35,298 bases of DNA from an uncultured Myxococcales bacterium (lineage in GTDB: Bacteria > Myxococcota > Myxococcia > Myxococcales > Myxococcaceae): positions 1 to 35,298 of the forward strand of contig CAIWFK010000668.1 of assembly GCA_903911905.1 (NCBI GenBank), read 5' to 3'. Position 1 is the first letter of the stretch; each line of letters starts with the position of its first letter. A program made the position numbers and the translations under genes. The notes beneath the pieces were generated by a model. The model was not told the origin of the DNA. It searched no databases and saw only the letters and a program-made list of their open reading frames with translations. Shown here piece after piece: positions 3,306 through 14,616 of this stretch.

Positions 3306-4652
3306 TCAGCCTTCGCGGCGCTCGAGAATCTCGACGCCCAGCATGGCCGCGAGAAAGCCACGCACCTGGTGCTCGGGCTGCGGCGTGGCGGCGAGCAGTT
3401 CGGCGGTGGTGCGGTTGCCGTCGATGCGCGAGAGCAGCACCGCTTCCCACTTCTCGAGCTGCAGTTCGTGCAACTGGTACGCGGGGTGCTGGCTGGGAAT
3501 GAGTCGGTCTTCGAGCGTGATGAGTCGGGCCAGCCGCTCGGGCTTGTAGAGCTTCTTGATGCCGCGAATGATGAGGTTGCCGGGGAAGACGTCGAGCTTG
3601 ATGCTCTCGGCGCGCGCCTTCTCGCGGAAGGTCACCACGAAGCGGCCCTCTTCCCAGCCGAAGAGGCTGTAGATGATGCTCTTGACCTGCTGGCCCACGT
3701 ACCAGAGGCGCTCGGTGTCCTTGAGCAGGCCGCGCTCGACCAGCACGTCGCCGGTGCGCCGCTTCGACTGGGCGGCGACCACCGCCACGTCGTCGAGCTG
3801 CTCGGGCTTGATCTTGCCCACCCGCACCAGGAACTGGCCGAAGCGGTCGGCGGCGAGGTTCGAGAGCGCGAACACCGGCTGACCGCCCTCGAAGTACACC
3901 ACCTTCTTGACCTTGCCCTTCTGGCAGTACAGCTCGCCCGTCTCGCGCGACTGGTAGAAGGCCGAAATGAGCCCGGGCAGGTTGTTCTGCAGTTCGCCCT
4001 GACGGGTCCCGCGCACGCCGCTGGGCGAGCTGCCGACGAACGAGGCTGCGGGTGACGACACCGGCCGCGAGCCCGACACCGGCCCCTTGAGCGCACCGGC
4101 GGTGAGGTTCTCGCCCTGCAGCTCGGCGGTGATGTTGCCGCCGCCGGTCACCTTGATGCGACCGGTGAGCTCCATTTCGTCTTGCTCGTCTTCGGCGTCG
4201 ACGTCGATGTCGAGCTCGACGTCGAAGTCTTCGGGGGCGGCGGGCGGTTTGGGGGCGCTCGAGGCCGGCGGCGGCGCGGCGAGCGTGGGCGGCACCAGGG
4301 CCCGCACGTCGTCGAGCAGCTTCTTGGCGTCGAAGGGCTTCTCGAAATAGCTCGAGCCGGGGAAGCGGGTGAGCGCCTCGGTGGAATGGCGCGAGCCCTT
4401 GAAGACGCCGCTCATGAACATCAGCGGCACGCCGGGGCGCGCGGCCCTCAGCGCGTCGGCGACGTGGTAGCCCATCATGTCGGGCAAGAGTACGTCGACC
4501 AGCGCCAGGTCGAAGGGTGTGGTGCGAGCCAGATCGCTGGCCTGCTTGCCCTTGTTGGCCCCCACCACCGCGTACCCGGCCTCTTCGAAGAGCGAGGTGA
4601 GCAACGCCACCAGCTCTTTGTTGTCGTCGACGACGAGAATGGTGGAAGACAT
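3306..4652 (-). CDS. Response regulator receiver domain fused to DUF4388
   Basis: A 448-aa cytoplasmic protein. Residues 1-115 form a canonical receiver domain with acidic pair D9/D10, phospho-acceptor D53, S81 and K105. An acidic Ala/Pro-rich linker follows. From about residue 205 comes a DUF4388-type region (GELQNNLPGLISAFYQ, then GELYCQKGKVKKVVYF) and an alpha/beta C-terminal part typical of delta-proteobacterial signalling proteins. There is no DNA-binding or enzymatic output domain, so output is probably by protein contact. The frame extends to an ATG at 4703, but the receiver core begins right at the ATG at 4652, and the longer form would overlap the start of the divergent gene. The partner kinase is not in the window. 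Confidence 0.85.
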   Translation of the reverse strand: MSSTILVVDDNKELVALLTSLFEEAGYAVVGANKGKQASDLARTTPFDLALVDVLLPDMMGYHVADALRAARPGVPLMFMSGVFKGSRHSTEALTRFPGSSYFEKPFDAKKLLDDVRALVPPTLAAPPPASSAPKPPAAPEDFDVELDIDVDAEDEQDEMELTGRIKVTGGGNITAELQGENLTAGALKGPVSGSRPVSSPAASFVGSSPSGVRGTRQGELQNNLPGLISAFYQSRETGELYCQKGKVKKVVYFEGGQPVFALSNLAADRFGQFLVRVGKIKPEQLDDVAVVAAQSKRRTGDVLVERGLLKDTERLWYVGQQVKSIIYSLFGWEEGRFVVTFREKARAESIKLDVFPGNLIIRGIKKLYKPERLARLITLEDRLIPSQHPAYQLHELQLEKWEAVLLSRIDGNRTTAELLAATPQPEHQVRGFLAAMLGVEILERREG

Positions 4653-4701
4653 CGAGAGGTAGGTTACCCTCAAGGGACCCCAGCCCCAAGCCCGAGGTAA
4701 C

Positions 4702-5019
4702 ATGAACCGTCAGTTGCTGGTTGCGTTGCTGTTCTCGGTCACGAGCGCCACCGCCGTGCGCGCGCAGGTCTTCGACGCCTCGATTCCCGACGCCTCGGTC
4801 GGTCAGGGCGGGGCCGATCAGAGCAGCGAAGAGAACGACCCCAACGCCTACCCGTGCCTCGACTCCACCGTCTGCGAGAAGGGGTACGTCTGTCGCAGTG
4901 GAACCTGCGTGCCGCCGGTGAAGTCCGGCAGCAGCGGCAGCGGGTGCAGCACGGCGGTGATGCCGCTCTCGCTGTTGGGCGTGCTGGCGTTGATGCGCCG
5001 CGCCCGTCGCGGTCACTGA
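4702..5019 (+). CDS. Small secreted Cys-rich protein with MYXO-CTERM-like anchor
   Basis: A 105-aa protein with a Sec signal peptide (about residues 1-21, cut after VRA) and a short acidic segment. A compact four-Cys motif follows at C52, C58, C64 and C69, of the C-x5-C-x5-C-x4-C knot type common in myxobacterial surface proteins. The C-terminus is Gly/Ser-rich, then GC (C82), a hydrophobic helix and a basic RRARR end. That tripartite tail matches the MYXO-CTERM sorting signal, which is thought to be processed at the Cys for surface display. A good ribosome site (GAGG at 4694-4697) precedes the ATG. It diverges from the receiver-DUF4388 gene with only 49 bp between starts, and its 3' end overlaps the convergent AgmX-like gene by 3 bp. 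Confidence 0.75.
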   Translation: MNRQLLVALLFSVTSATAVRAQVFDASIPDASVGQGGADQSSEENDPNAYPCLDSTVCEKGYVCRSGTCVPPVKSGSSGSGCSTAVMPLSLLGVLALMRRARRGH

Positions 5020-6245
5020 TCGGTGCGGTGGAAGACCAGCGGGTAGCTGACGGTCGCGCCGCCGCCGTGGGACGCGGGGAAGCGCCAGGTCCGAACTCGC
5101 GAGACGACGCACTCGTCGAGCTCGGTCGACAGCCCTTCCTTCGCGGCTGCGCTCGAGACTTCGCCCGAGGGCTCGATGCGGAAGACGAAGACCAGCCGAC
5201 CGTCGAGCGACGGGGCGCGGGCCAACGAGCGCTCGTAGCAGGCGCGCAACTGGCCCAGGTGCTGGTGAATGACGTCGCGAATGAGCTTCTTGTCGAGGCA
5301 GCCGGTCGAGTCGCAGGTCGGCTCGGGGTCGGGCAACCGCTCGGGGCCCACGTGCTGCTTGCCGCACTCGGCGCCCACGCACGGTCGCGCGACGCCGGTC
5401 TGGTGTGCCACGCCCACCCGGCCGATGTCGGCGCGGCCGCCGAGGTCGCCGCCTCCGCCACCGCCGCGCAGGTCCAGGCCGCCCAGGCCTCCGGCGTTGG
5501 CCAGGCCACCACCACCGGCATTGCGCAGGCCGTCGAGCGCGTGGTCGAACGAGCCCGCGCCCAGCCCCTGCAGCGACGAGAAGAGGCGTGAGGCCGCGAG
5601 CGTCGGTGCGCGGGGCCCGACGCGCGCGATCGAGGCCTGGCCGGGAGGTGCTCGGCCGCTGGGCGTGCGTGCGGGCGTGGGTTCGGGGGTGGCAGCGCGG
5701 TGCACGACGGGAGGAGGAGGTTCGACCATGGGCAGAATGCGCCGCAGCCGGGTAGGGTCGAGGTGCGGGCGGTCGTCGTCTTCCAGGCCCGCCACGAGCG
5801 TCTCGGCGCGAGTGACCAGCACCGCCGCGACCAGCCCCGTCAGCAGCAGCACGTTGAGCCAGCGGTAGTCGGGCGCGGCGCCGCCGGTGGCGCGCGCGGG
5901 GGTGCGTACGGTGAAGGCGTCGAGCGTCAGCGCTCCCGATGAGAGGCGCAGGCGCTCGTGCGCGCCGATGGGAAGGCTCCAGCCGTCGGCCTCTTCGGTC
6001 GCGGTGCCATCGGCGACCAGCTCGGTGAGCGCGTGGGTGCCGCCGTCGCGCTGACGCCGGCCGGTGAGCCCGGGCGAGAAGGTGCAGGCCCAGGTGCCGT
6101 CACGAAGGGCGAAGCGCACCGCACCCACTGGCAGGCCCAGTTCGCCACCGGGGCCCAGCTGGAGCGAAGGCCGGTGCTCGTCGACGAGCCACGAGGTCAA
6201 CGGCCGGTCCTTCCATCGCACGCGCACGGCCAGCGAGGTCGCCAT
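5013..6245 (-). CDS. AgmX/PglI C-terminal domain protein (TonB-like)
   Basis: A 410-aa protein from the preferred ATG at 6245. Residues 1-120 form a beta-rich N-terminal domain. One membrane helix (about 129-146) is followed by a Pro/Ala-rich and then Gly-rich spacer. The last 100 residues have the AgmX/PglI-type fold, a relative of the TonB C-terminal domain (conserved I-x-x-H-x-x-Q-x-x-x-CYE, then a beta hairpin with GEV and a final RTWRFP). The topology suggests a cytoplasmic N-domain and a periplasmic C-domain reaching toward the outer membrane. Family members include proteins of adventurous gliding motility, but the family is large and motility is not proven here. The frame is open 30 codons further upstream, but those residues are Arg/Pro-rich and look non-coding. 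Confidence 0.8.
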   Translation of the reverse strand: MATSLAVRVRWKDRPLTSWLVDEHRPSLQLGPGGELGLPVGAVRFALRDGTWACTFSPGLTGRRQRDGGTHALTELVADGTATEEADGWSLPIGAHERLRLSSGALTLDAFTVRTPARATGGAAPDYRWLNVLLLTGLVAAVLVTRAETLVAGLEDDDRPHLDPTRLRRILPMVEPPPPVVHRAATPEPTPARTPSGRAPPGQASIARVGPRAPTLAASRLFSSLQGLGAGSFDHALDGLRNAGGGGLANAGGLGGLDLRGGGGGGDLGGRADIGRVGVAHQTGVARPCVGAECGKQHVGPERLPDPEPTCDSTGCLDKKLIRDVIHQHLGQLRACYERSLARAPSLDGRLVFVFRIEPSGEVSSAAAKEGLSTELDECVVSRVRTWRFPASHGGGATVSYPLVFHRTDQ

Positions 6246-6494
6246 GAAAGTCCAGACAGCGCGGCGGGCGCGAGGTTCCCGAAGCGGCCTCGCGCGAGGG
6301 CCGGGGCGGGCGCGGCCGACGAACTGCTCGACCACCGGTTGGCGCGTGGCTGGGTAGCGACACCGAGGAGCACGGTCGTGCGCGGGGCCGTGGCGGGTCG
6401 AGCTGGTTCGAGGTCTCTGGTGATTCTGTGAAGCTGAGGCCCGGAGCGGGTCGGCTGAATCTCACACAGAACGAGCCTCCTCATCGCAGCCGCA

Positions 6495-6694: not shown

Positions 6695-7045
6695 TCAGAG
6701 CTTCTCGGGGAACGCCGAGAGCCCCACCCGTCGCCCGTCGGGGTCGCGGAAGTAGAGCGTGTGGTTGGTCGAGCCCTCGAGCGCCACCTTCGCCGCTGCG
6801 AGCCGCGTGAGGAACTCGTCCTTGCGCTCCGGGGTGATGGCGAAGGCGAACATCTCGAGCGAGTCGATGGCCAGCGGTGGCTCGCTCGCTTCCTTGCGCT
6901 CGAGCATGAGAATCGTCTCACCGGCCTCGATCCACACGCTGCGCTCACCCTGGCGCCGGCTGACGTTCAGGCCCAGTACGCCCGTGTAGAACGCCTCGAG
7001 CCGGGGCAGGTCGGCGGTGCGCAGCGCGAGGTGGTGAAGACGCAT
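6695..7045 (-). CDS. VOC (glyoxalase/bleomycin resistance) family protein
   Basis: A 116-aa single VOC module. It opens with MRLHHLALRTADLPRLEAFY, the usual first beta-alpha unit with a His. It ends with LYFRDPDGRRVGLSAF, the usual last strand. At the two other positions where metal-dependent members have His and Glu, this protein has Met (EMFAFAI) and Gly (RRVGLS). It is therefore unlikely to be a metal-dependent glyoxalase and may bind a ligand instead. The gene starts 8 bp after the stop of the thioesterase-like gene and very likely shares its promoter and TetR operator. Substrate unknown. Confidence 0.8.
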   Translation of the reverse strand: MRLHHLALRTADLPRLEAFYTGVLGLNVSRRQGERSVWIEAGETILMLERKEASEPPLAIDSLEMFAFAITPERKDEFLTRLAAAKVALEGSTNHTLYFRDPDGRRVGLSAFPEKL

Positions 7046-7053
7046 CGCTGCCT

Positions 7054-7554
7054 TCAGCTCCGCGGGCCGATGACCCAGCGCGCCGACATGCGCGCGACCA
7101 GTTCGCCCGCTTCGTTCTTCAATTCGGCGGTGACCGTCTGCTCGAGGTTGCCAGTCACCGTCTCGGGCGCGTCGCACACGCATTCGGCGGTGATGGGCCC
7201 GCGCGCCTTCTTGAAATACTCGATGGCCAGGTTGTTCGGAATGCCGCGCGCGTCGTCTGGCAGCGAGTACATCATCGCCACGCCGGTGGTGGCCTCGGCC
7301 AGGTTGATGAGGGCGATGGCGTGCACCGAGTTGAGGTGGTTGCGCACGCGCCTGGTGTCCCTGATGCGCAGCTTGGCGTAGCCGCGGTCGAGGGAGACCA
7401 CCTCGGGGCGCACCGTGCCGGTGTACGGCGCCAGTTGGCCCAACACCCGGCCCATGATTCGACCACCACCGGGCACCGAGCGCAGCACGCCCCAGGTCGA
7501 GCGCAGCGTGGCCGGCGAAGCGAGGTTCTTCAGGTTTCCAAGCAGGGAACTCAT
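7054..7554 (-). CDS. Hotdog-fold protein, DUF4442/thioesterase-like
   Basis: A 166-aa protein resembling the DUF4442 group of the hotdog superfamily, whose members are related to acyl-CoA or acyl-ACP thioesterases. The diagnostic stretch is RVRNHLNSVHAIALINLAEATTG, where N and H of the long helix lie at the hotdog active-site position. After it comes a strand-rich half with RGPITAECVC. The ATG at 7554 is preferred over upstream alternatives because the conserved part begins soon after it. Divergent from the TetR gene; the 68 bp between the two starts carry a TetR-type operator, so repression by that regulator is likely. The acyl substrate cannot be read from the sequence. Confidence 0.75.
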   Translation of the reverse strand: MSSLLGNLKNLASPATLRSTWGVLRSVPGGGRIMGRVLGQLAPYTGTVRPEVVSLDRGYAKLRIRDTRRVRNHLNSVHAIALINLAEATTGVAMMYSLPDDARGIPNNLAIEYFKKARGPITAECVCDAPETVTGNLEQTVTAELKNEAGELVARMSARWVIGPRS

Positions 7555-7582
7555 GACCGTCGCCCTTAGCGTCAAACAGGGC

Positions 7583-7610
7583 TTGACTCAAAATTGAACG
7601 AACGTTCTAT
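7583..7610 (+). promoter_or_regulatory. Probable promoter of the TetR gene
   Basis: TTGACT (7583-7588) fits a -35 box. TTCTAT (7605-7610), 16 bp further on, is a weak -10 box. The TetR operator at 7595-7608 fills the spacer, the classic place for a repressor to block RNA polymerase. A divergent promoter for the thioesterase side (TTGAGT with CTAAGG, minus strand) overlaps it. Confidence 0.4.
7595..7608. promoter_or_regulatory. TetR operator, copy 1
   Basis: TGAACGAACGTTCT contains the perfect inverted repeat GAACG-AA-CGTTC. It lies between the divergent thioesterase-like and TetR genes. The same 12-bp core recurs exactly once more in the window, at 8254-8265. Confidence 0.75.
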
Positions 7611-7622
7611 TTGGAGGCGAGC

Positions 7623-8255
7623 ATGGCTCGGCCAAGGAAATCAGAGGCGCGCAACACCCGGCAGGCGATTCTCGATGCCTCGCTCGACCTCTTCGCCGAG
7701 CACGGCTATTTCGGCACCTCGATGCGGGAAATCGCCCGCACCGTCGGCGTTCGCGAGAGCGCGCTGTACCACCACTTCGATTCGAAGGAAGCGGTGTTCC
7801 GCGAACTCATCGCCCACCTGGGCCCTGGCCGCATCGGGCAGGTGATGACGGTCGACACGCTGGGGCTGGCGCGCTCGCTGGGCGTGCGGCAGATGCTGCG
7901 GCGGCTGCTCGACATGGTGGTCGTCACCTGGACCATTCCCGAGGAAGCCAAGCTCTTCCGGGTGATGTTGCAGGAAGGCATGCGCCTGGCCGCCGCCGAG
8001 GTGGTCAACCCTGCCGACGCCATCACGCGGGTGCGCGCGAGCATGGCCGCGCTCTTCGGTCAGCTCGCGAAGGCGGGGCTGATTCGCAAGGTCGACCCGC
8101 ACGCCACCTCGGCCATGCTGATGGGGTCGCTGTTGATGTTGCGCGTGCTCTACCAGGGCGCGAGCAGCGACTTTCCCGCGCTGCAGCGCGAGGCGGCGAA
8201 GGTGGCCGACCAGTTGTGGGTGTTCCTCGAGCCCGGGCCTGAGGCTCTCAAATGA
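7623..8255 (+). CDS. TetR/AcrR family transcriptional regulator
   Basis: A 210-aa repressor. Residues about 9-57 form the TetR helix-turn-helix domain (ILDASLDLFAEHGYFGTSMREIARTVGVRESALYHHFDSKEAVF), with the typical recognition-helix end YHHF. The C-terminal helical domain would bind the inducer. The start is set by GGAGG at 7613-7617, 5 bp before the ATG. Identical inverted repeats lie just upstream of its own start and across its stop codon, before the ABC operon. It therefore probably represses itself, the divergent thioesterase-VOC pair and the export operon. The inducer is unknown; the thioesterase context makes an acyl compound possible. Confidence 0.93.
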   Translation: MARPRKSEARNTRQAILDASLDLFAEHGYFGTSMREIARTVGVRESALYHHFDSKEAVFRELIAHLGPGRIGQVMTVDTLGLARSLGVRQMLRRLLDMVVVTWTIPEEAKLFRVMLQEGMRLAAAEVVNPADAITRVRASMAALFGQLAKAGLIRKVDPHATSAMLMGSLLMLRVLYQGASSDFPALQREAAKVADQLWVFLEPGPEALK

Positions 8256-8266
8256 ACGAACGTTCA
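8253..8266. promoter_or_regulatory. TetR operator, copy 2
   Basis: TGAACGAACGTTCA repeats the GAACG-AA-CGTTC core of copy 1 and is symmetric over its whole 14 bp apart from the AA centre. It overlaps the TGA stop of the tetR gene and lies 23 bp before the ATG of the first permease, so it is placed to control the export operon separately from tetR. Confidence 0.75.
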
Positions 8267-8289
8267 CTTCATTTCAGTCGGGAGGCGCC

Positions 8290-9591
8290 ATGGCGCTGCT
8301 GAAGCTGGCCGTGCGGAACCTGCTGCGCAACCGCAAGCGCACCGTCATCACCCTGGTCGCGCTGGTGGTCGGCGTGAGCGCGATGATCGCCACCCGCGCC
8401 TTCATCAACGGGTTCCGCGGCATGATCATCGAGAACCAGACCCGCGGCGTGCTGGGGGAATTGCAGGTGCACCACGTGGGCTACGTGGCCAACGTGCAGA
8501 GCAGCCCGCTGACCATCGACATGGTCGACTCGCCCGAGGTGCGCGCGAAGATCGCGGCCGTGCCGGGCGTCGGGGTGGTCAGCCCCCGCATCGACTTCGG
8601 CGCGCAACTCTCGACGCCCGATCGCACGCCGCCGCACGAAGACGGCAGCGAGCTGCCCGAGGCCGACCGCGGCACCTCGACCTTCATGATGGTCACCGCC
8701 TTCGAGCCCGCGCTGGAAAAGCAGGTCACGCCCCGCCGGTGGGACTGGATCGGCGCCGGCCGCGGGACGATGTCGGAAGCGGGCGATTCGACCTCGCTGG
8801 TGCTCAACGACGACTTCGCCCGGGCGCTCAAGCTCGAGTTGCTGCCGGCCGGCGCGGCGCTGCCTCCGGTCGAACGCCAGGCTGCGCTCATCACCGGAGA
8901 TCGCGAGCAGGCGCTCAACGGCGAGAACGTGGTCATCGGCGGTACCTTCGCCTCGGTCACCGCCAACGACCGGCGCATCGGCTTCCTGCCCTTGGCGCTC
9001 GCCCAGCGCCTGTTGCGCATGGAAGGCCGGGTCACCGAGTACGGCCTGACGCTCGAGCCGGGAGCTGACCTCGAGCAGGTGAAGGCTGGGCTGCAGGCGG
9101 CGCTGGGGCCCGAGTACGAGGTGCACACCTGGGCCGAGCGCATTCCCTTCCTCACCGACCTGGTCGAGACCCAGACGAAGATCTTCAACATCGTCTCGAC
9201 CATCGTGCTGCTGGTGGTGCTGCTGGGAATCGTCAACGCCATGTTGATGAGCGTGCTCGAGCGGGTGCGTGAAATCGGCACCATGCTGGCGGTGGGTATG
9301 CGGCGCTCGCAAATCACCCGCATGTTCCTGATGGAAGGCGCGGTGCTGGGCGTGGTGGGCGGCGTGCTGGGCATCGCGGTGGGCCTGCTGCTGGTGCTGG
9401 TGATGAGCCAGGCCGGCATCGAGCTGCCCGCGCCCGGGGCGAAGGTGGCCTCGGTCATTCACCCCACCGTCGAGCCGTTCTTCGTGGTGCGCACGCTGGC
9501 CCAGGCCGTCATCGGCTCGGCGCTGGCGGCGATTCTTCCTGCACGACGGGCGGCGGCGCTGCGACCCGTGGAGGCGCTGGCGCACACATGA
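8290..9591 (+). CDS. ABC transporter permease, LolC/E-FtsX-MacB type (first copy)
   Basis: A 433-aa inner-membrane protein with the four-helix FtsX topology: one helix near residues 18-38, a large periplasmic domain to about 285, then three helices. The motif after the second helix (NAMLMSVLERVREIGTMLAVGMRRSQI) is the coupling region of FtsX-family permeases, and the C-terminus has the usual PARRAAALRPVEAL end. There is no fused ATPase, so it needs the separate LolD-like ATPase at the end of the operon. GGGAGG precedes the ATG. It overlaps the second permease gene by 4 bp (ATGA), indicating coupled translation and a heterodimer as in LolCE. Expected to extract cargo from the membrane rather than pump across it. 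Confidence 0.92.
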   Translation: MALLKLAVRNLLRNRKRTVITLVALVVGVSAMIATRAFINGFRGMIIENQTRGVLGELQVHHVGYVANVQSSPLTIDMVDSPEVRAKIAAVPGVGVVSPRIDFGAQLSTPDRTPPHEDGSELPEADRGTSTFMMVTAFEPALEKQVTPRRWDWIGAGRGTMSEAGDSTSLVLNDDFARALKLELLPAGAALPPVERQAALITGDREQALNGENVVIGGTFASVTANDRRIGFLPLALAQRLLRMEGRVTEYGLTLEPGADLEQVKAGLQAALGPEYEVHTWAERIPFLTDLVETQTKIFNIVSTIVLLVVLLGIVNAMLMSVLERVREIGTMLAVGMRRSQITRMFLMEGAVLGVVGGVLGIAVGLLLVLVMSQAGIELPAPGAKVASVIHPTVEPFFVVRTLAQAVIGSALAAILPARRAAALRPVEALAHT

Positions 9592-10808
9592 GCCGACTTC
9601 CCGCACTCGCCATTCGCAACGTCGGCCGCAACCGCCGCCGCACCTTCATCACCGCGCTCACCATCGCCTTCGGCGTCACCATGGTCGTCTCGGTACGCGG
9701 GGTGATGTTCGGCCTGCAGACGATGATGATTTCCGACACCGTCGAGGGCCGCCTGGGCGCGCTTCAGGTCCACCGCGCGGGCTACCTCGACGCCATCGAT
9801 TCGGTGCCGCTCACCCTCAACCTGCCGTACACCCCCGAGCTATTGCAGAAGATTCGGGCCGTACCGCACGTGAAGGGCGTCACCGGGCGCATTCAGTTCA
9901 ACGGGCTGGTGTCGAACGGGCAGGCGCAGACCATGTTCGTGGGGCGCGGGCTCGACGTCGGTCACGAGCTGGAAGTGTGCCCCCAGTTGGCCAGTACGGT
10001 GAAGCCCGGCGGCGGGCCGCTGGGCGCGGGTGACGACGCGGCGGCCTTGCTGGGCTTCGAGTTGGCGCAGTCGTTCGGGGTCGGCGTGGGGCAGACGGTG
10101 GCGTTGCAGACCACCAGCCCCTCGGGCCGCGCCAACTCGCTCGACCTGAAGGTTCGCGGGCTGTCGACCTCGGCCTTTCCGCTGGAAAACAAGCGCGTGG
10201 CGACCGTGACGCTGGGCACCGCCCAGGCGCTGCTGGGGCTCGAGGGCAAGGTGACCGAAATCGCCGTGGCCATCGACGACGTAGCGCGGGTCGACGAGGT
10301 CGCAGCAGCCCTGCGCCAGGCCCTGGGCGAAGGCTACGAGGTCAGCACCTGGCGTGAACTGCAGCCCTTCCTGCGCGACATCATCTCGCGGCAGAACTTC
10401 GTGCTGGGCATGGTCTCGTTGATTCTGCTCGTCATCGTGCTGACCAGCATCATCAACACCATGTTGATGAGCGTGTTCGAACGGGTGCGCGAAATCGGCA
10501 CCCTGCTGGCGGTCGGTGTGCGGCGCGCGCAGGTGATGTCCATCTTCCTCATCGAGGCGGCGGTCATCGGCGTGCTGGGCGGCCTGTCGGGCGCCGTCGT
10601 CGGGCGAACGTTGGTGGCCATCGTCGCCTCGCGCGGCATCCACTTCGAACTCTCGGGGCTCAACGCGGTCAACGTGCTGCGGCCGGTGGTGACCTGGCCC
10701 TTCGTCTTCGGCGCGGTGGCCGTGGCGATTCTGGCCGCGCTGGGTGCAGCGCTCTGGCCCGCGTGGCGCGCTTCTCGAATGAACCCCGTCGATGCCTTGA
10801 GGAACTGA
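9588..10808 (+). CDS. ABC transporter permease, LolC/E-FtsX-MacB type (second copy)
   Basis: A 406-aa paralogue of the preceding permease with the same plan: an N-terminal helix after RNVGRNRRRTFI, a periplasmic domain to about 270 and three C-terminal helices. The coupling motif NTMLMSVFERVREIGTLLAVGVRRAQV is nearly the same as in the first copy, while the periplasmic domains have diverged. That pattern suits an asymmetric pair like LolC and LolE. It begins inside the stop codon of the first permease and is followed after 4 bp by the LolA-like gene. The periplasmic domain would be the docking site for that carrier, by analogy with LolC. Confidence 0.92.
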   Translation: MSRLPALAIRNVGRNRRRTFITALTIAFGVTMVVSVRGVMFGLQTMMISDTVEGRLGALQVHRAGYLDAIDSVPLTLNLPYTPELLQKIRAVPHVKGVTGRIQFNGLVSNGQAQTMFVGRGLDVGHELEVCPQLASTVKPGGGPLGAGDDAAALLGFELAQSFGVGVGQTVALQTTSPSGRANSLDLKVRGLSTSAFPLENKRVATVTLGTAQALLGLEGKVTEIAVAIDDVARVDEVAAALRQALGEGYEVSTWRELQPFLRDIISRQNFVLGMVSLILLVIVLTSIINTMLMSVFERVREIGTLLAVGVRRAQVMSIFLIEAAVIGVLGGLSGAVVGRTLVAIVASRGIHFELSGLNAVNVLRPVVTWPFVFGAVAVAILAALGAALWPAWRASRMNPVDALRN

Positions 10809-10812
10809 AAAA

Positions 10813-11532
10813 ATGCGAACTGCGCTCATCTGCACGCTGCTGCTCTCGACCCAGGCGCTGGCCGGCGCGCCGACCGTCGACGACATCTTGAAGAAGTACG
10901 ACGCCATCATGGGGCCCACGGTCTTCGAGGCCGAGAACGAGATGACCTCGACCCGCGAAGACGGGACCACGCGCACCTACGTGATGAAGATGCTCAAGAA
11001 GGACAGCGACAAGTTCCGCATCTATTTCACCGGGCCCGCTGCGGTGAAGGGGCAGGAAATCCTCCGCATCGGCGACAACGCCTGGGTGTACCTGCCGAAC
11101 CTCAAGCGCGCGACGCGCATCGCCAACCGCGAGAGCTTCCAGGGCGGTGACTTCAACAACGCCGACGTGCTGCGGGTGAACTACCAGGCCGACTACTCGG
11201 GCACGCTCATCGACTCCGACGTGCCCGACACCTGGTGCGTGCAGTTGAAGGCGAAGAACGCCGAGACCTCGTACGACGCCATCACCCTCTACGTGCGCAA
11301 GAGCGACCTGTTGCCGGTGAAGGGCAAGTACTTCGGCACCTCGGGCAAGTTGATTCGCAGCGCCGAGTTCACCGACGTGAAGGAGCTGTCGAAGGGCTTC
11401 GTGCGCCCGGTGAAGGTGGTGATGCACAACGAGCTGGTGCCCGCGCGCAAGTCCGAGATGGTGGTGCGCGAGATGAAGCTCGACGTCGAAGTGCCCGCGC
11501 AGCGCTTCACGCAGACCGACCTGGGGAAGTGA
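10813..11532 (+). CDS. LolA-like periplasmic outer-membrane lipoprotein-sorting protein
   Basis: A 239-aa protein with a Sec signal peptide (about residues 1-19, ending LAGA) and no lipobox, hence soluble in the periplasm. The mature part matches the LolA-like/COG2834 group, with the core WVYLPNLKRATRIAN followed by SFQGGDFNNADVLRV. These proteins have the open beta-barrel fold that shelters acyl chains. Housekeeping LolA is usually encoded apart from FtsX-like permeases. This one sits inside an ABC operon 4 bp after the permeases, which suggests a dedicated carrier. Its partner would be the beta-barrel protein encoded next. The cargo, lipid or lipoprotein, is not shown. Confidence 0.85.
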   Translation: MRTALICTLLLSTQALAGAPTVDDILKKYDAIMGPTVFEAENEMTSTREDGTTRTYVMKMLKKDSDKFRIYFTGPAAVKGQEILRIGDNAWVYLPNLKRATRIANRESFQGGDFNNADVLRVNYQADYSGTLIDSDVPDTWCVQLKAKNAETSYDAITLYVRKSDLLPVKGKYFGTSGKLIRSAEFTDVKELSKGFVRPVKVVMHNELVPARKSEMVVREMKLDVEVPAQRFTQTDLGK

Positions 11533-11534
11533 CC

Positions 11535-13100
11535 ATGCTGCTCGTCGCTCTGCTCAGCGTGCTCGCGGCCGAGGCTCCCGAGGCGGGAAGCGAGGTCGAT
11601 GCGGGGGCGGCGATGGAAGCCCCCGCAGCCGAGGTCACGCCCGCGCCCGCCGCTGCGGTCGACGTGAGTGCCCCCCCGCCTGCGGCGACCCCCGAGCCGG
11701 CGAGGAAGCTGGTCGAGGCCACCGGCTACGTCGACAGCCGCAGTTCGTTCACCCGGGTCAAGACCTGGGGCCTGGTGCCCACCGACGACGTGCCGCAATT
11801 GCAGGAACTGCTCGAGTTCAACGCGCAGGTGAAGGTGAAGTGGCGCGAGCGCAGCTACCTGTCGAGCGACGTCTCGCTCATCGGCAACGTGTCGGGCGAG
11901 TACCACGGGCGCGACGCCACCACCCAGGCCGACGTTCGGCTCGATGATCACAACAGCGCGCAGGCCCTGCCGGTGGTCAGCATCAACGAGTTGTACCTGT
12001 TCCACGAATTCATTCCGCAGCTCAACGTGGTGCTGGGCAAGAAGCGCGTGGTGTGGGGCCCGGGCCTGGCCCTCAACCCCACCGACCTGCTCAACCCGCG
12101 CCGCGACCCCACCGACCCCACGCTGCAGCGCTCGGGCTCGTGGCTGGCCGAAATCGAGGCGCCCTTCGAGACCATGACCTTCTCGCTGCTCTTCGCGCCC
12201 ACCCAACTGAGCGCGGCCTCGGGCATTCCCACCGCGTTCGTGACGTACCCCGGCTGGAACAAGGTCGACGACCTGGCGCACTTCCAGCTCGCCGCGCGCT
12301 GGTACCTGCTGGTGAAGGACGCCGACGTGAACGTGATGGCGTTCTACGGCAATTCGAGCATCGACGCGTTCCGCGACAAGTTCCGCGTGGGCCTGACCTT
12401 CTCGCGCTACTTCTTCACCGACTACGAATTGCACGCCGAGGCGCTCATTCAGCAGGGCAGCGCACGCCAGACCATCGACCCCGATTGCGTTGCGAGCACG
12501 GTGGGCGCGCTGACCTGCGTGAAGGCGGGCACGGCGGTGCTGCAGACCACCCGCTTGAACGACCACGCCTTCCTGCCGAAGCTGCTGGTGGGCACCAAGC
12601 GACAGTTCAGCGACGACTCGCTCATCTCGCTCGAATACCTGTACCAGGCCGACGGGTGGGACCGCGCGCAGTTCCAGGCCTTCGCCAACGGGCTGTCGCT
12701 GCTCGACGAAGGGCGGCGCGCCGGGCTGCCGGTCAACCGCATTCCCGGCGCCAGTTCGCTGTTGGGGCAGTCGAGCTCGACCGACGGCCTGCCGGCGCGG
12801 GTGAGCTTCGACCCGCGCGGTCAGCACTACCTCTTCCTCACCTTCCAGAAGCCGCGCATCTTCGACGACTTCACTGCGAGCGTGGTGGTCATCGCCAACC
12901 TGACCGACCTCTCGACCATCTGGACGCCGTCGCTGGCCTGGAGCGCCACCGAGTGGCTGACCCTGACGCTCTACGCCTTCGTGCCGCTGCAGGGCCCCGA
13001 CGCGCTGGCGGTGACCACCCCGCAGGGCAAGCCGGTCAGCGAGTTCTCAGCCAGTCCCTACGCCGTACGTGCGCTGCTGGAAGCGCGCGTCTTCTTCTGA
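11535..13100 (+). CDS. Putative outer-membrane beta-barrel protein of the export operon
   Basis: A 521-aa protein starting at ATG 2 bp after the LolA-like gene. A short signal peptide (about residues 1-12, MLLVALLSVLAA) is followed by an Ala/Pro-rich segment to about 55 and then a long region of alternating amphipathic strands. The last residue is Phe (EARVFF), the usual recognition end for the barrel assembly machinery. The region VLGKKRVVWGPGLALNPTDLLNPRRDP recalls DUF1302-like barrels, which often accompany LolA-like proteins and RND or MMPL pumps, but I cannot fix the family. Its position points to a role in receiving or inserting the exported cargo at the outer membrane. Confidence 0.75.
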   Translation: MLLVALLSVLAAEAPEAGSEVDAGAAMEAPAAEVTPAPAAAVDVSAPPPAATPEPARKLVEATGYVDSRSSFTRVKTWGLVPTDDVPQLQELLEFNAQVKVKWRERSYLSSDVSLIGNVSGEYHGRDATTQADVRLDDHNSAQALPVVSINELYLFHEFIPQLNVVLGKKRVVWGPGLALNPTDLLNPRRDPTDPTLQRSGSWLAEIEAPFETMTFSLLFAPTQLSAASGIPTAFVTYPGWNKVDDLAHFQLAARWYLLVKDADVNVMAFYGNSSIDAFRDKFRVGLTFSRYFFTDYELHAEALIQQGSARQTIDPDCVASTVGALTCVKAGTAVLQTTRLNDHAFLPKLLVGTKRQFSDDSLISLEYLYQADGWDRAQFQAFANGLSLLDEGRRAGLPVNRIPGASSLLGQSSSTDGLPARVSFDPRGQHYLFLTFQKPRIFDDFTASVVVIANLTDLSTIWTPSLAWSATEWLTLTLYAFVPLQGPDALAVTTPQGKPVSEFSASPYAVRALLEARVFF

Positions 13101-13109
13101 AAGCCGACC

Positions 13110-13805
13110 ATGAGCCACCTCATCGAGATGAAGGGCATCACCAAGACCTACCAACTGGGCAAGACCGACGTGGTGGCGCTGCGGGGCGTCGACCTCACCA
13201 TCGACGCGGGTGAGTTCACGGTGGTCACCGGGCCTTCGGGCTCGGGCAAGACGACGCTGCTCAACATCATCGGCTGTCTCGACCGGGCGACCAGCGGCAG
13301 CTACGTGCTCGATGGGGTCGACGTGGGCACGCGCGACTTCGACGACCTGGCCGGCGTGCGCAACGAGAAAATCGGCTTCATCTTCCAGAACTTCAACCTC
13401 ATTCCCGTGCTCGACGTGGCCGAGAACATCGAGTTCCCGGTGGCGGTGCGGAAGAACGCCGAAGACCCGGCGGCGTTGCGCGCGCGCGTGGAGCAGTTGG
13501 CGAAGGCCGTGGGGCTCGACCAGTTCCTGCATCACAAGCCCGATGAGTTGTCGGGCGGTCAGCGGCAGCGCGTGGCCATCGCCCGGGCGCTCATCACCAG
13601 ACCGCGGTTGGTGCTGGCGGACGAGCCGACTGCGAACCTCGACTCGAAGACCAGCGAGCAGATCATCGACCTGATGCTGGCGCTCAACCGCGAGCAGGCG
13701 GTGACGTTCCTCTTCTCGACGCACGACGCACGGGTGGTCTCGCATGCTCGGCGCGCGCTGCAGATTTCCGACGGCCGAATGGTCGCCGGCGCGATGGCGC
13801 ACTGA
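13110..13805 (+). CDS. ABC transporter ATP-binding protein, LolD/MacB type
   Basis: A 231-aa cytoplasmic ATPase with Walker A GPSGSGKTT at 41-49, Q-loop FIFQNFNLIPVL, signature LSGGQRQRVAIARAL, Walker B LVLADEPTANLD and H-loop STHD. The Q-loop region and TANLD are typical of the LolD/MacB/FtsE group that drives FtsX-type permeases by mechanical transmission. It is the last gene of the operon, separated from its permeases by the LolA-like and barrel genes. That unusual order suggests all five genes are expressed and work together. It is the only ATPase available for the two permeases in this cluster. Confidence 0.93.
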   Translation: MSHLIEMKGITKTYQLGKTDVVALRGVDLTIDAGEFTVVTGPSGSGKTTLLNIIGCLDRATSGSYVLDGVDVGTRDFDDLAGVRNEKIGFIFQNFNLIPVLDVAENIEFPVAVRKNAEDPAALRARVEQLAKAVGLDQFLHHKPDELSGGQRQRVAIARALITRPRLVLADEPTANLDSKTSEQIIDLMLALNREQAVTFLFSTHDARVVSHARRALQISDGRMVAGAMAH

Positions 13806-13861
13806 GCGAGCGTGCTCCCGGGAAGACCGCCTCGTGAGCAGTTGCTCGAAGAACGGGAAAA

Positions 13862-13889
13862 CGCCGCGCCAGCAACAGCCAGCGCGGCG
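13862..13889. terminator. Hairpin between convergent genes, probable terminator
   Basis: The arms CGCCGCGC (13862-13869) and GCGCGGCG (13882-13889) form a perfect 8-bp stem with a 12-nt loop. Read on the minus strand the stem is followed by TTTT, so it probably ends the outer-membrane protein transcript. On the plus strand it closes the ABC operon without a T tract. Confidence 0.6.
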
Positions 13890-13914
13890 CTTCAGGTGAG
13901 AGTGGGAATTCTCT

Positions 13915-14616
13915 TCAGCGGGCGTCGTAGCCCAGCGTCAGCGCCGGCATCACGCCGACCGCGAGGCCGGTGGTGTTCGCCGTGACCGAGCCGCCCATGC
14001 TGTCGCCGGTGACCGTGGCGTAGGCCGCGTTCGGGGCGAAGAGGAAGAGCACGTCGAGGCCGATGTTGAACCCCGAGCGGCGACCGGTGCGCTCGTTGCG
14101 GTGACCCAGGTTGAGGCCGATCTTCAGGTCGAGCGCGGGCATGAAGCCGCCAGCGACGACGGTGGTGGTCGAGGCCGCACCGTTGGTGTTGGCCGAGGCA
14201 GCCACGCCGGCCCAGCCGCCGTCGGCGATGGCAGGACCCGCCGCGATGGACAGGCGGTCGAAGAGCGTCATTTCACCCAGTACGCCCAACTTCCACCAAC
14301 CGGCGACCGAGATGGACGCCGAGGTCGTGCCGTTGGGGTTGACCGAGCCGCCCACGCCGAAGCCGAAGGTCGCGCCGCCGTTCACGAACACACCGAACGT
14401 GCGGTTGACCTGGTAGCCGATGCGGCCTTCCGCGCCGAAAGTGACGGTGGTCTGCGGCAGCAACAGGCCAATCTGCCCGTCGATACCCCAGCGAACCCGG
14501 CCTTGTTCTTCGACCATGGGCGCGTCTGGAGGCGGGGGCGGCGGCGGCGCCATGCTGTCCTGGGCCAGCGCAGTGAACGACGAAACGAGAGCTGCCATCA
14601 TCAAGGTGCGGTTCAT
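13915..14616 (-). CDS. Putative outer-membrane beta-barrel protein
   Basis: A 233-aa protein with a Sec signal peptide (about residues 1-18, ending ALAQ), a run of seven prolines and then about 200 residues of short alternating strands rich in Gly, Thr and aromatics. Length and pattern fit an eight-stranded OmpA/OmpW-like barrel. It ends YDAR rather than in an aromatic residue, slightly unusual for a barrel. It is transcribed alone, convergent to the ABC operon and divergent from the antiporter gene. The 104-bp divergent gap holds an AT-rich patch (14651-14663) suited to a promoter. Exact family and function are not recognised. Confidence 0.65.
   Translation of the reverse strand: MNRTLMMAALVSSFTALAQDSMAPPPPPPPDAPMVEEQGRVRWGIDGQIGLLLPQTTVTFGAEGRIGYQVNRTFGVFVNGGATFGFGVGGSVNPNGTTSASISVAGWWKLGVLGEMTLFDRLSIAAGPAIADGGWAGVAASANTNGAASTTTVVAGGFMPALDLKIGLNLGHRNERTGRRSGFNIGLDVLFLFAPNAAYATVTGDSMGGSVTANTTGLAVGVMPALTLGYDAR

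Follow-up and report, generated by a model that had tools for sequence, protein, structure and literature searches.

In Castellaniella defragrans, the AmeABCD system unites an HAE3-type resistance-nodulation-division (RND) pump with a DUF1302 barrel and a DUF1329 protein of the LolA superfamily; deletion mutants tolerate apolar monoterpenes less well (PMC6394551). Here we describe an operon that, by analogy, appears to follow the AmeABCD design with an ATP-binding cassette (ABC) engine. It lies in a window of 35,298 nucleotides (positions 1-35,298 of contig CAIWFK010000668.1) from an uncultured Myxococcales bacterium. Behind a TetR-family regulator, it encodes two LolC/E-like FtsX permease subunits (FtsX1 and FtsX2), a LolA-fold carrier, an outer-membrane barrel and a LolD-like ATPase, with a hotdog-fold and a VOC gene oriented divergently; this is the gene content and order already given by a sequence-only reading of the window. 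In common with AmeABCD, it combines a LolA-superfamily periplasmic protein, an outer-membrane barrel (here a probable relative of DUF1302) and a predicted inner-membrane exporter, and would likewise be inducible. It differs in that AmeABCD has an HAE3-type RND engine and the additional protein AmeC, whereas the engine here is of ABC type and the barrel is only a distant relative. On balance, we lean towards the operon being an inducible exporter that moves a small lipid or another hydrophobic molecule across the envelope.

Among ABC-type systems described in the open-access literature, the closest one found is the Borrelia BBJ23-29 cluster. According to the accessible part of its description (PMC13078400), a MacB/LolE-like permease, a separate ATPase, a LolA-like protein and an outer-membrane barrel are clustered there, but the barrel is of the Omp85 family, a single permease is proposed to homodimerise, two extra TPR/chaperone proteins are present and no TetR is described. 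The Porphyromonas gingivalis genes PG1178-PG1181 (TetR-MMPL-LolA-hypothetical) likewise place a TetR, a LolA-like ‘sorting’ protein and a transporter under common regulation, although with an MMPL engine (PMC10470040, PMC10434189, PMC13227078). Their strong induction when haem or iron is limiting (PMC10470040, PMC10434189) illustrates that such units can be tightly regulated, and says nothing on cargo. At the Flavobacterium flexirubin locus, the Lol-type carrier LolA2 is suggested to be dedicated to a hydrophobic cargo, but it is accompanied by LolB2 instead of a barrel and lies within a biosynthetic cluster (PMC11885536). Escherichia coli LolABCDE shares heterodimeric FtsX-type permeases, a LolD-like ATPase and a LolA-fold carrier; in contrast, it uses canonical LolA and LolB without a barrel, is essential and is not TetR-linked, and the module described here misses the Lol family cut-offs. 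The operon is a new arrangement of known parts.

Conservation of the five-gene core

Two sets of relatives were compared: 60 relatives that were searched with the carrier, and 60 loci, nearly all from Myxococcota, found by searching one prokaryotic genome collection with a barrel profile. The order FtsX-FtsX-LolA-barrel-ATPase is present on one strand in 51 of the 60 barrel-profile loci, far beyond chance. Carrier and barrel are thus retained with the permeases, and the separation that the sequence-only reading had named as evidence against its proposal did not occur. The seven-gene set it had put forward is reduced to five genes plus TetR, the hotdog and VOC genes not being members. Among the nine deviating loci, contig ends interrupt L108, L110 and L116, part of the set is missing from L096 and L137, the Spirochaete locus L140 has a different order, the Spirochaete loci L141 and L142 contain MMPL versions and L143 has no neighbour match. 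Of the 51 complete modules, 21 have a TetR gene immediately 5′ of FtsX1. Beyond TetR, no functional gene is shared by the majority of the 60 neighbourhoods, the flanking clusters of which are partly annotated.

At E ≤ 1e-10, the barrel profile finds a match in 57 of the 195 Myxococcota genomes (approximately 40 of these being long matches), and the module is therefore accessory and patchy. Archangium lansinium has two copies (L094 and L134), each with all five genes. A complete Myxococcota-type module was also observed in a record titled as a Klebsiella pneumoniae metagenome-assembled genome (L122, CAMDBH010000021.1), which is probably mislabelled or contaminated.

Candidate TetR operators and the divergent genes

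The palindrome TGAACG-NN-CGTTCA has a single exact match in the 7.57-Mb source genome, at 8253-8266 (operator 2 in Table 1). Both operator positions, before TetR and before FtsX1, recur in TetR-bearing relatives. Allowing at most one mismatch, 19 sites were found in 877 kb of related loci, all of them inside the module, at an overall rate of ~0.004 per 180-bp window. TetR-bearing loci account for 16 of the 19 (7 before TetR and 9 before FtsX1), and loci without TetR are mostly without a site. L122, in which no TetR was detected, has one site before FtsX1, and copies between barrel and ATPase genes are found at L108:1938-1951 and L137:9525-9538, the latter in a cluster without permease genes. 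Judged from sequence, these recurrent palindromes represent a phylogenetic footprint of candidate TetR operators. A scan for sigma-70 promoters found nothing.

The proposal that the same regulator divergently controls the hotdog and VOC genes agrees with the position of operator 1 (7595-7608) between the hotdog gene and TetR. This agreement is positional only, and hotdog-less relatives possess the operator too; indeed, it requires no control of the hotdog gene, because TetR autoregulation alone accounts for an operator before TetR. Neither the hotdog (DUF4442) nor the VOC gene has a match in any related locus. DUF4442 genes do occur in 48 of the 60 relatives, and those compared are either on a different contig or separated from the module by megabases. 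The upstream neighbour of TetR in relatives is variable (M20 peptidase, MBOAT acyltransferase, protein kinase and others). Acyl chemistry, previously suggested as part of the unit, was therefore dropped from the system, given that the related loci lack both genes and the DUF4442 homologues are unlinked. As far as these sequences indicate, linkage of the hotdog and VOC genes to the module is private to the source genome, and the hotdog gene may be co-regulated there alone.

The inner-membrane engine and the periplasmic carrier

FtsX1 and FtsX2 each contain approximately four hydrophobic segments, and both score higher against LolCE than against MacB. The best NCBIfam model is lolCE in either case, with 94.9 bits for FtsX1 and 120.7 bits over the full length for FtsX2, compared to a cut-off of 362.45 that is passed by no protein of the source genome and by only 2 of 14 control genomes. 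The ATPase is best matched by LolD (221.5 bits versus a cut-off of 307.75), and is encoded apart from the permeases (13110-13805 and 8290-10808, respectively), with no fusion. Hence, the two permeases resemble LolC/E, as had been noted, but fall below the cut-off for membership of that family. A stronger LolC/E-like permease of the source genome is found at C516. The engine would be predicted to work like LolCDE, yet is not classed as Lol.

The carrier matches only PF17131 in Pfam and not canonical LolA (PF03548), for which genes are present elsewhere in the source genome (C135 and C761). Its hydrophobic N-terminus is read as a type I signal. The AlphaFold2 model (predicted local distance difference test, pLDDT, 84.5) is nearest in fold to NE2245 (3buu, template modelling (TM) score 0.80), P. 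gingivalis LolA3 (9tp6), the Vibrio protein 3bk5 and the DUF1329 protein 4z48. The TM scores of 0.75-0.80 to this group (0.77 for 4z48) compare to ~0.44 for canonical LolA structures, and sequence matches of the carrier in the PDB agree with the fold matches. P. gingivalis LolA3 shows only very weak binding to LolB, and a separate function has been suggested for it (PMC13103446). The modelled fold places the carrier in the DUF1329/LolA3-type branch, rather than with canonical LolA.

The outer-membrane barrel

Comparison of the barrel and 21 relatives to Pfam gave nothing above chance, with no Omp85 match, and a sequence search against solved structures returned no match. In contrast to reversed and shuffled controls (0.1-0.2%), profile-profile alignment with hhalign related the barrel to DUF1302 (95.7%, E 8.8e-9, 294 columns). 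On these profiles it is a probable distant homologue of DUF1302, which would tie it to the AmeA barrel. The AlphaFold2 model (pLDDT 78.4) is a large single barrel with AlgE and porin-type fold matches (E ~1e-10, TM ~0.5); none of the 50 listed PDB fold matches is an Omp85 barrel, all being AlgE, porins or further barrel types. The C-terminal residue is aromatic in all 22 aligned barrel relatives. The most conserved stretch, GKKRxxWGxG..NPTDLLNP..DPTDP, may face the lumen in the model. Cys318 and Cys328, near-invariant across the 22 sequences, are located in a loop and possibly form a disulfide.

Permuted orders and other inner-membrane partners

A further set of 58 LolA-like loci was inspected, chosen non-randomly (mostly by descending score) and including paralogues from the source genome itself. 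A related barrel lies within 6 kb in 53 of these and FtsX in 43. Permuted orders include ATPase-FtsX-FtsX-LolA-barrel, barrel-ATPase-FtsX-FtsX-LolA (with one copy in the source genome) and LolA-FtsX-FtsX-ATPase-barrel, as well as the Spirochaete order LolA-ATPase-FtsX-FtsX-barrel and single-FtsX forms. Carrier, barrel and engine stay together despite this permutation.

The engine itself is not always of ABC type. Two Spirochaete loci display the order TetR-MMPL-LolA_like-barrel (L141:642-6264 and L142:3364-8903), and an MMPL engine is also present in the Myxococcaceae locus L200; a match near L196 is weak. In nine loci, the gene directly 5′ of the LolA-like gene encodes a rhomboid (PF01694)-TPR protein whose GASG serine and AH-GG histidine motifs are intact (L079:1482-5781, which is C177 of the source genome, L201, L202, L203, L209, L212, L222, L227 and L228), and a barrel of the same family then follows in most of them. 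No description of this arrangement was found in the open-access literature; from the gene order and motifs, it is possible that these loci mediate protease-coupled carrier-barrel export. We tentatively raise a broader proposal, for which the case is at present the weaker one: that the LolA-fold carrier and DUF1302-like barrel constitute a portable ‘outer half’ that evolution has joined to three or more partners in the inner membrane (LolCDE-like ABC, MMPL/RND and an intramembrane protease, the intact rhomboid-TPR protein). Carrier-mediated envelope export would then be a general class that includes a protease-driven branch, with the operon in the window as its TetR-controlled ABC branch.

Layout of the locus

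FtsX1 and FtsX2 overlap by 4 bp and the following gaps along the operon are 4, 2 and 9 bp; the five genes from FtsX1 to the ATPase are therefore taken to form one transcript. The interval originally assigned to the unit, 7045-13805, contains the operon but leaves most of the VOC gene outside, as 7045 is the VOC start codon.

Table 1 Features of the TetR-linked module and its divergent genes (window coordinates)
Feature	Position	Strand	Evidence and remarks
VOC/glyoxalase-fold gene	6695-7045	(-)	Glyoxalase PF00903, E 2.5e-10
DUF4442 hotdog-fold gene	7054-7554	(-)	PF14539, E 3.4e-36; start codon read from sequence
Candidate TetR operator 1	7595-7608		TGAACG-AA-CGTTCT; 1 mismatch to 6-2-6 palindrome; hotdog-TetR divergent intergenic region
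TetR-family regulator	7623-8255	(+)	TetR_N PF00440, E 3.6e-18; alternative upstream TTG start at 7611 possible
Candidate TetR operator 2	8253-8266		TGAACG-AA-CGTTCA; overlaps tetR stop, 5′ of FtsX1
FtsX1, LolC/E-like type VII ABC permease subunit	8290-9591	(+)	PF02687 and MacB_PCD
FtsX2, LolC/E-like type VII ABC permease subunit	9588-10808	(+)	PF02687 and MacB_PCD
LolA-fold periplasmic carrier	10813-11532	(+)	PF17131, E 1.7e-42
DUF1302-related outer-membrane beta-barrel	11535-13100	(+)	C-terminus ...ARVFF, Phe-ending
LolD-like ABC ATPase, separate polypeptide	13110-13805	(+)	PF00005

The gene after the ATPase (13915-14616, (-)) is convergent to the operon. Its 233 aa product has a signal-like N-terminus and a proline-rich stretch, has no Pfam match and is not kept with the module. 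On the upstream side, the window contains a response regulator with a DUF4388 domain (3306-4703, (-)) and an open frame whose C-terminus weakly resembles TonB_C, scoring just under the Pfam cut-off (5013-6335, (-)).

Proposed mechanism and cargo

In the mechanism we propose, TetR would repress its own gene and the operon through the two TGAACG-NN-CGTTCA operators, until released by an inducer that could be the cargo or a related stress signal. FtsX1-FtsX2 and an ATPase dimer would assemble a LolCDE-like type VII ABC complex that uses ATP to extract cargo from the inner membrane, and hand it to the LolA-fold carrier for passage through the periplasm. The carrier would unload at the DUF1302-related barrel, where cargo could enter or leave the outer membrane, the barrel taking LolB’s place as terminal acceptor. 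By analogy, a small lipid or hydrophobe is the most likely cargo, favoured because of the likeness to AmeABCD and because the carrier is not of the canonical LolA type. A dedicated TetR-linked envelope exporter spanning both membranes and separate from housekeeping Lol, as initially suggested from the sequence, is in keeping with these results, whereas the lipoprotein cargo suggested alongside becomes less likely, because the carrier is DUF1329/LolA3-type and the barrel DUF1302-related.

Several observations weigh against this model. More than half of the complete modules have no adjacent TetR, and hence regulation is not universal. The barrel model is of moderate confidence (pLDDT 78), with the conserved motif in a low-confidence loop. 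No cargo-making gene is kept with the module, such that the cargo class rests on the AmeABCD analogy and the carrier type, and AmeABCD itself is driven by an RND rather than an ABC engine and has the extra periplasmic protein AmeC.

The alternative that deserves most attention, although we consider it improbable, is a paralogous Lol pathway in which some of the lipoproteins would be extracted by the ABC complex and passed by the carrier to the barrel, to be inserted or displayed on the surface. Permeases and ATPase do score best against LolCE and LolD, and PF17131 is named ‘outer membrane lipoprotein-sorting protein’; yet every Lol cut-off is missed, the carrier bears little structural resemblance to canonical LolA (TM ~0.44 versus 0.80), canonical LolA genes are present elsewhere in the genome and no recurrent lipoprotein gene was seen beside the module in the 60 neighbourhoods. 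The very weak LolB binding of P. gingivalis LolA3, from the same structural group (PMC13103446), also argues against it. A link to MYXO-CTERM/myxosortase was considered separately and set aside, a paper having assigned surface export of those proteins to the type II secretion system.

It is highly unlikely that the operon encodes an efflux pump for soluble drugs, whether MacB-type or tripartite, despite the MacB_PCD domain in both permeases and the adjacent TetR regulator. MacB is an ATPase-permease fusion whose partners are a membrane-fusion protein and a TolC channel. The present module instead encodes its ATPase separately and includes a LolA-fold carrier, and both permeases score better against LolCE than MacB. 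Neither a membrane-fusion nor a TolC-type gene lies within 6695-14616, and no further family is common to most of the 60 neighbourhoods, as far as their flanking clusters are annotated; such a pump, which had been named as a possible refutation, is accordingly disfavoured. There is also little to recommend an uptake or retrograde route, in which an external hydrophobe would enter through the barrel and be taken inward by the carrier. Nutrient porins are among the barrel fold matches, and DUF1302 and DUF1329 are mentioned in the accessible parts of papers on hydrocarbon-degrading bacteria, but AmeABCD is reported as an efflux system (PMC6394551). No conserved catabolic gene was found nearby. 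To our knowledge, type VII ABC systems of such architecture export or act mechanically, and do not import.

The inducible exporter that we favour would bear on a long-standing gap, the passage of small lipids and hydrophobes across the periplasm. The unit is compact, its candidate operators are mapped, and cultured Archangium and Pyxidicoccus relatives (L094, L117) make the cargo directly testable. If the proposal is true, a soluble LolA-fold carrier and a barrel with exchangeable engines would provide a general answer to this problem beside Lol, Mla and Lpt.

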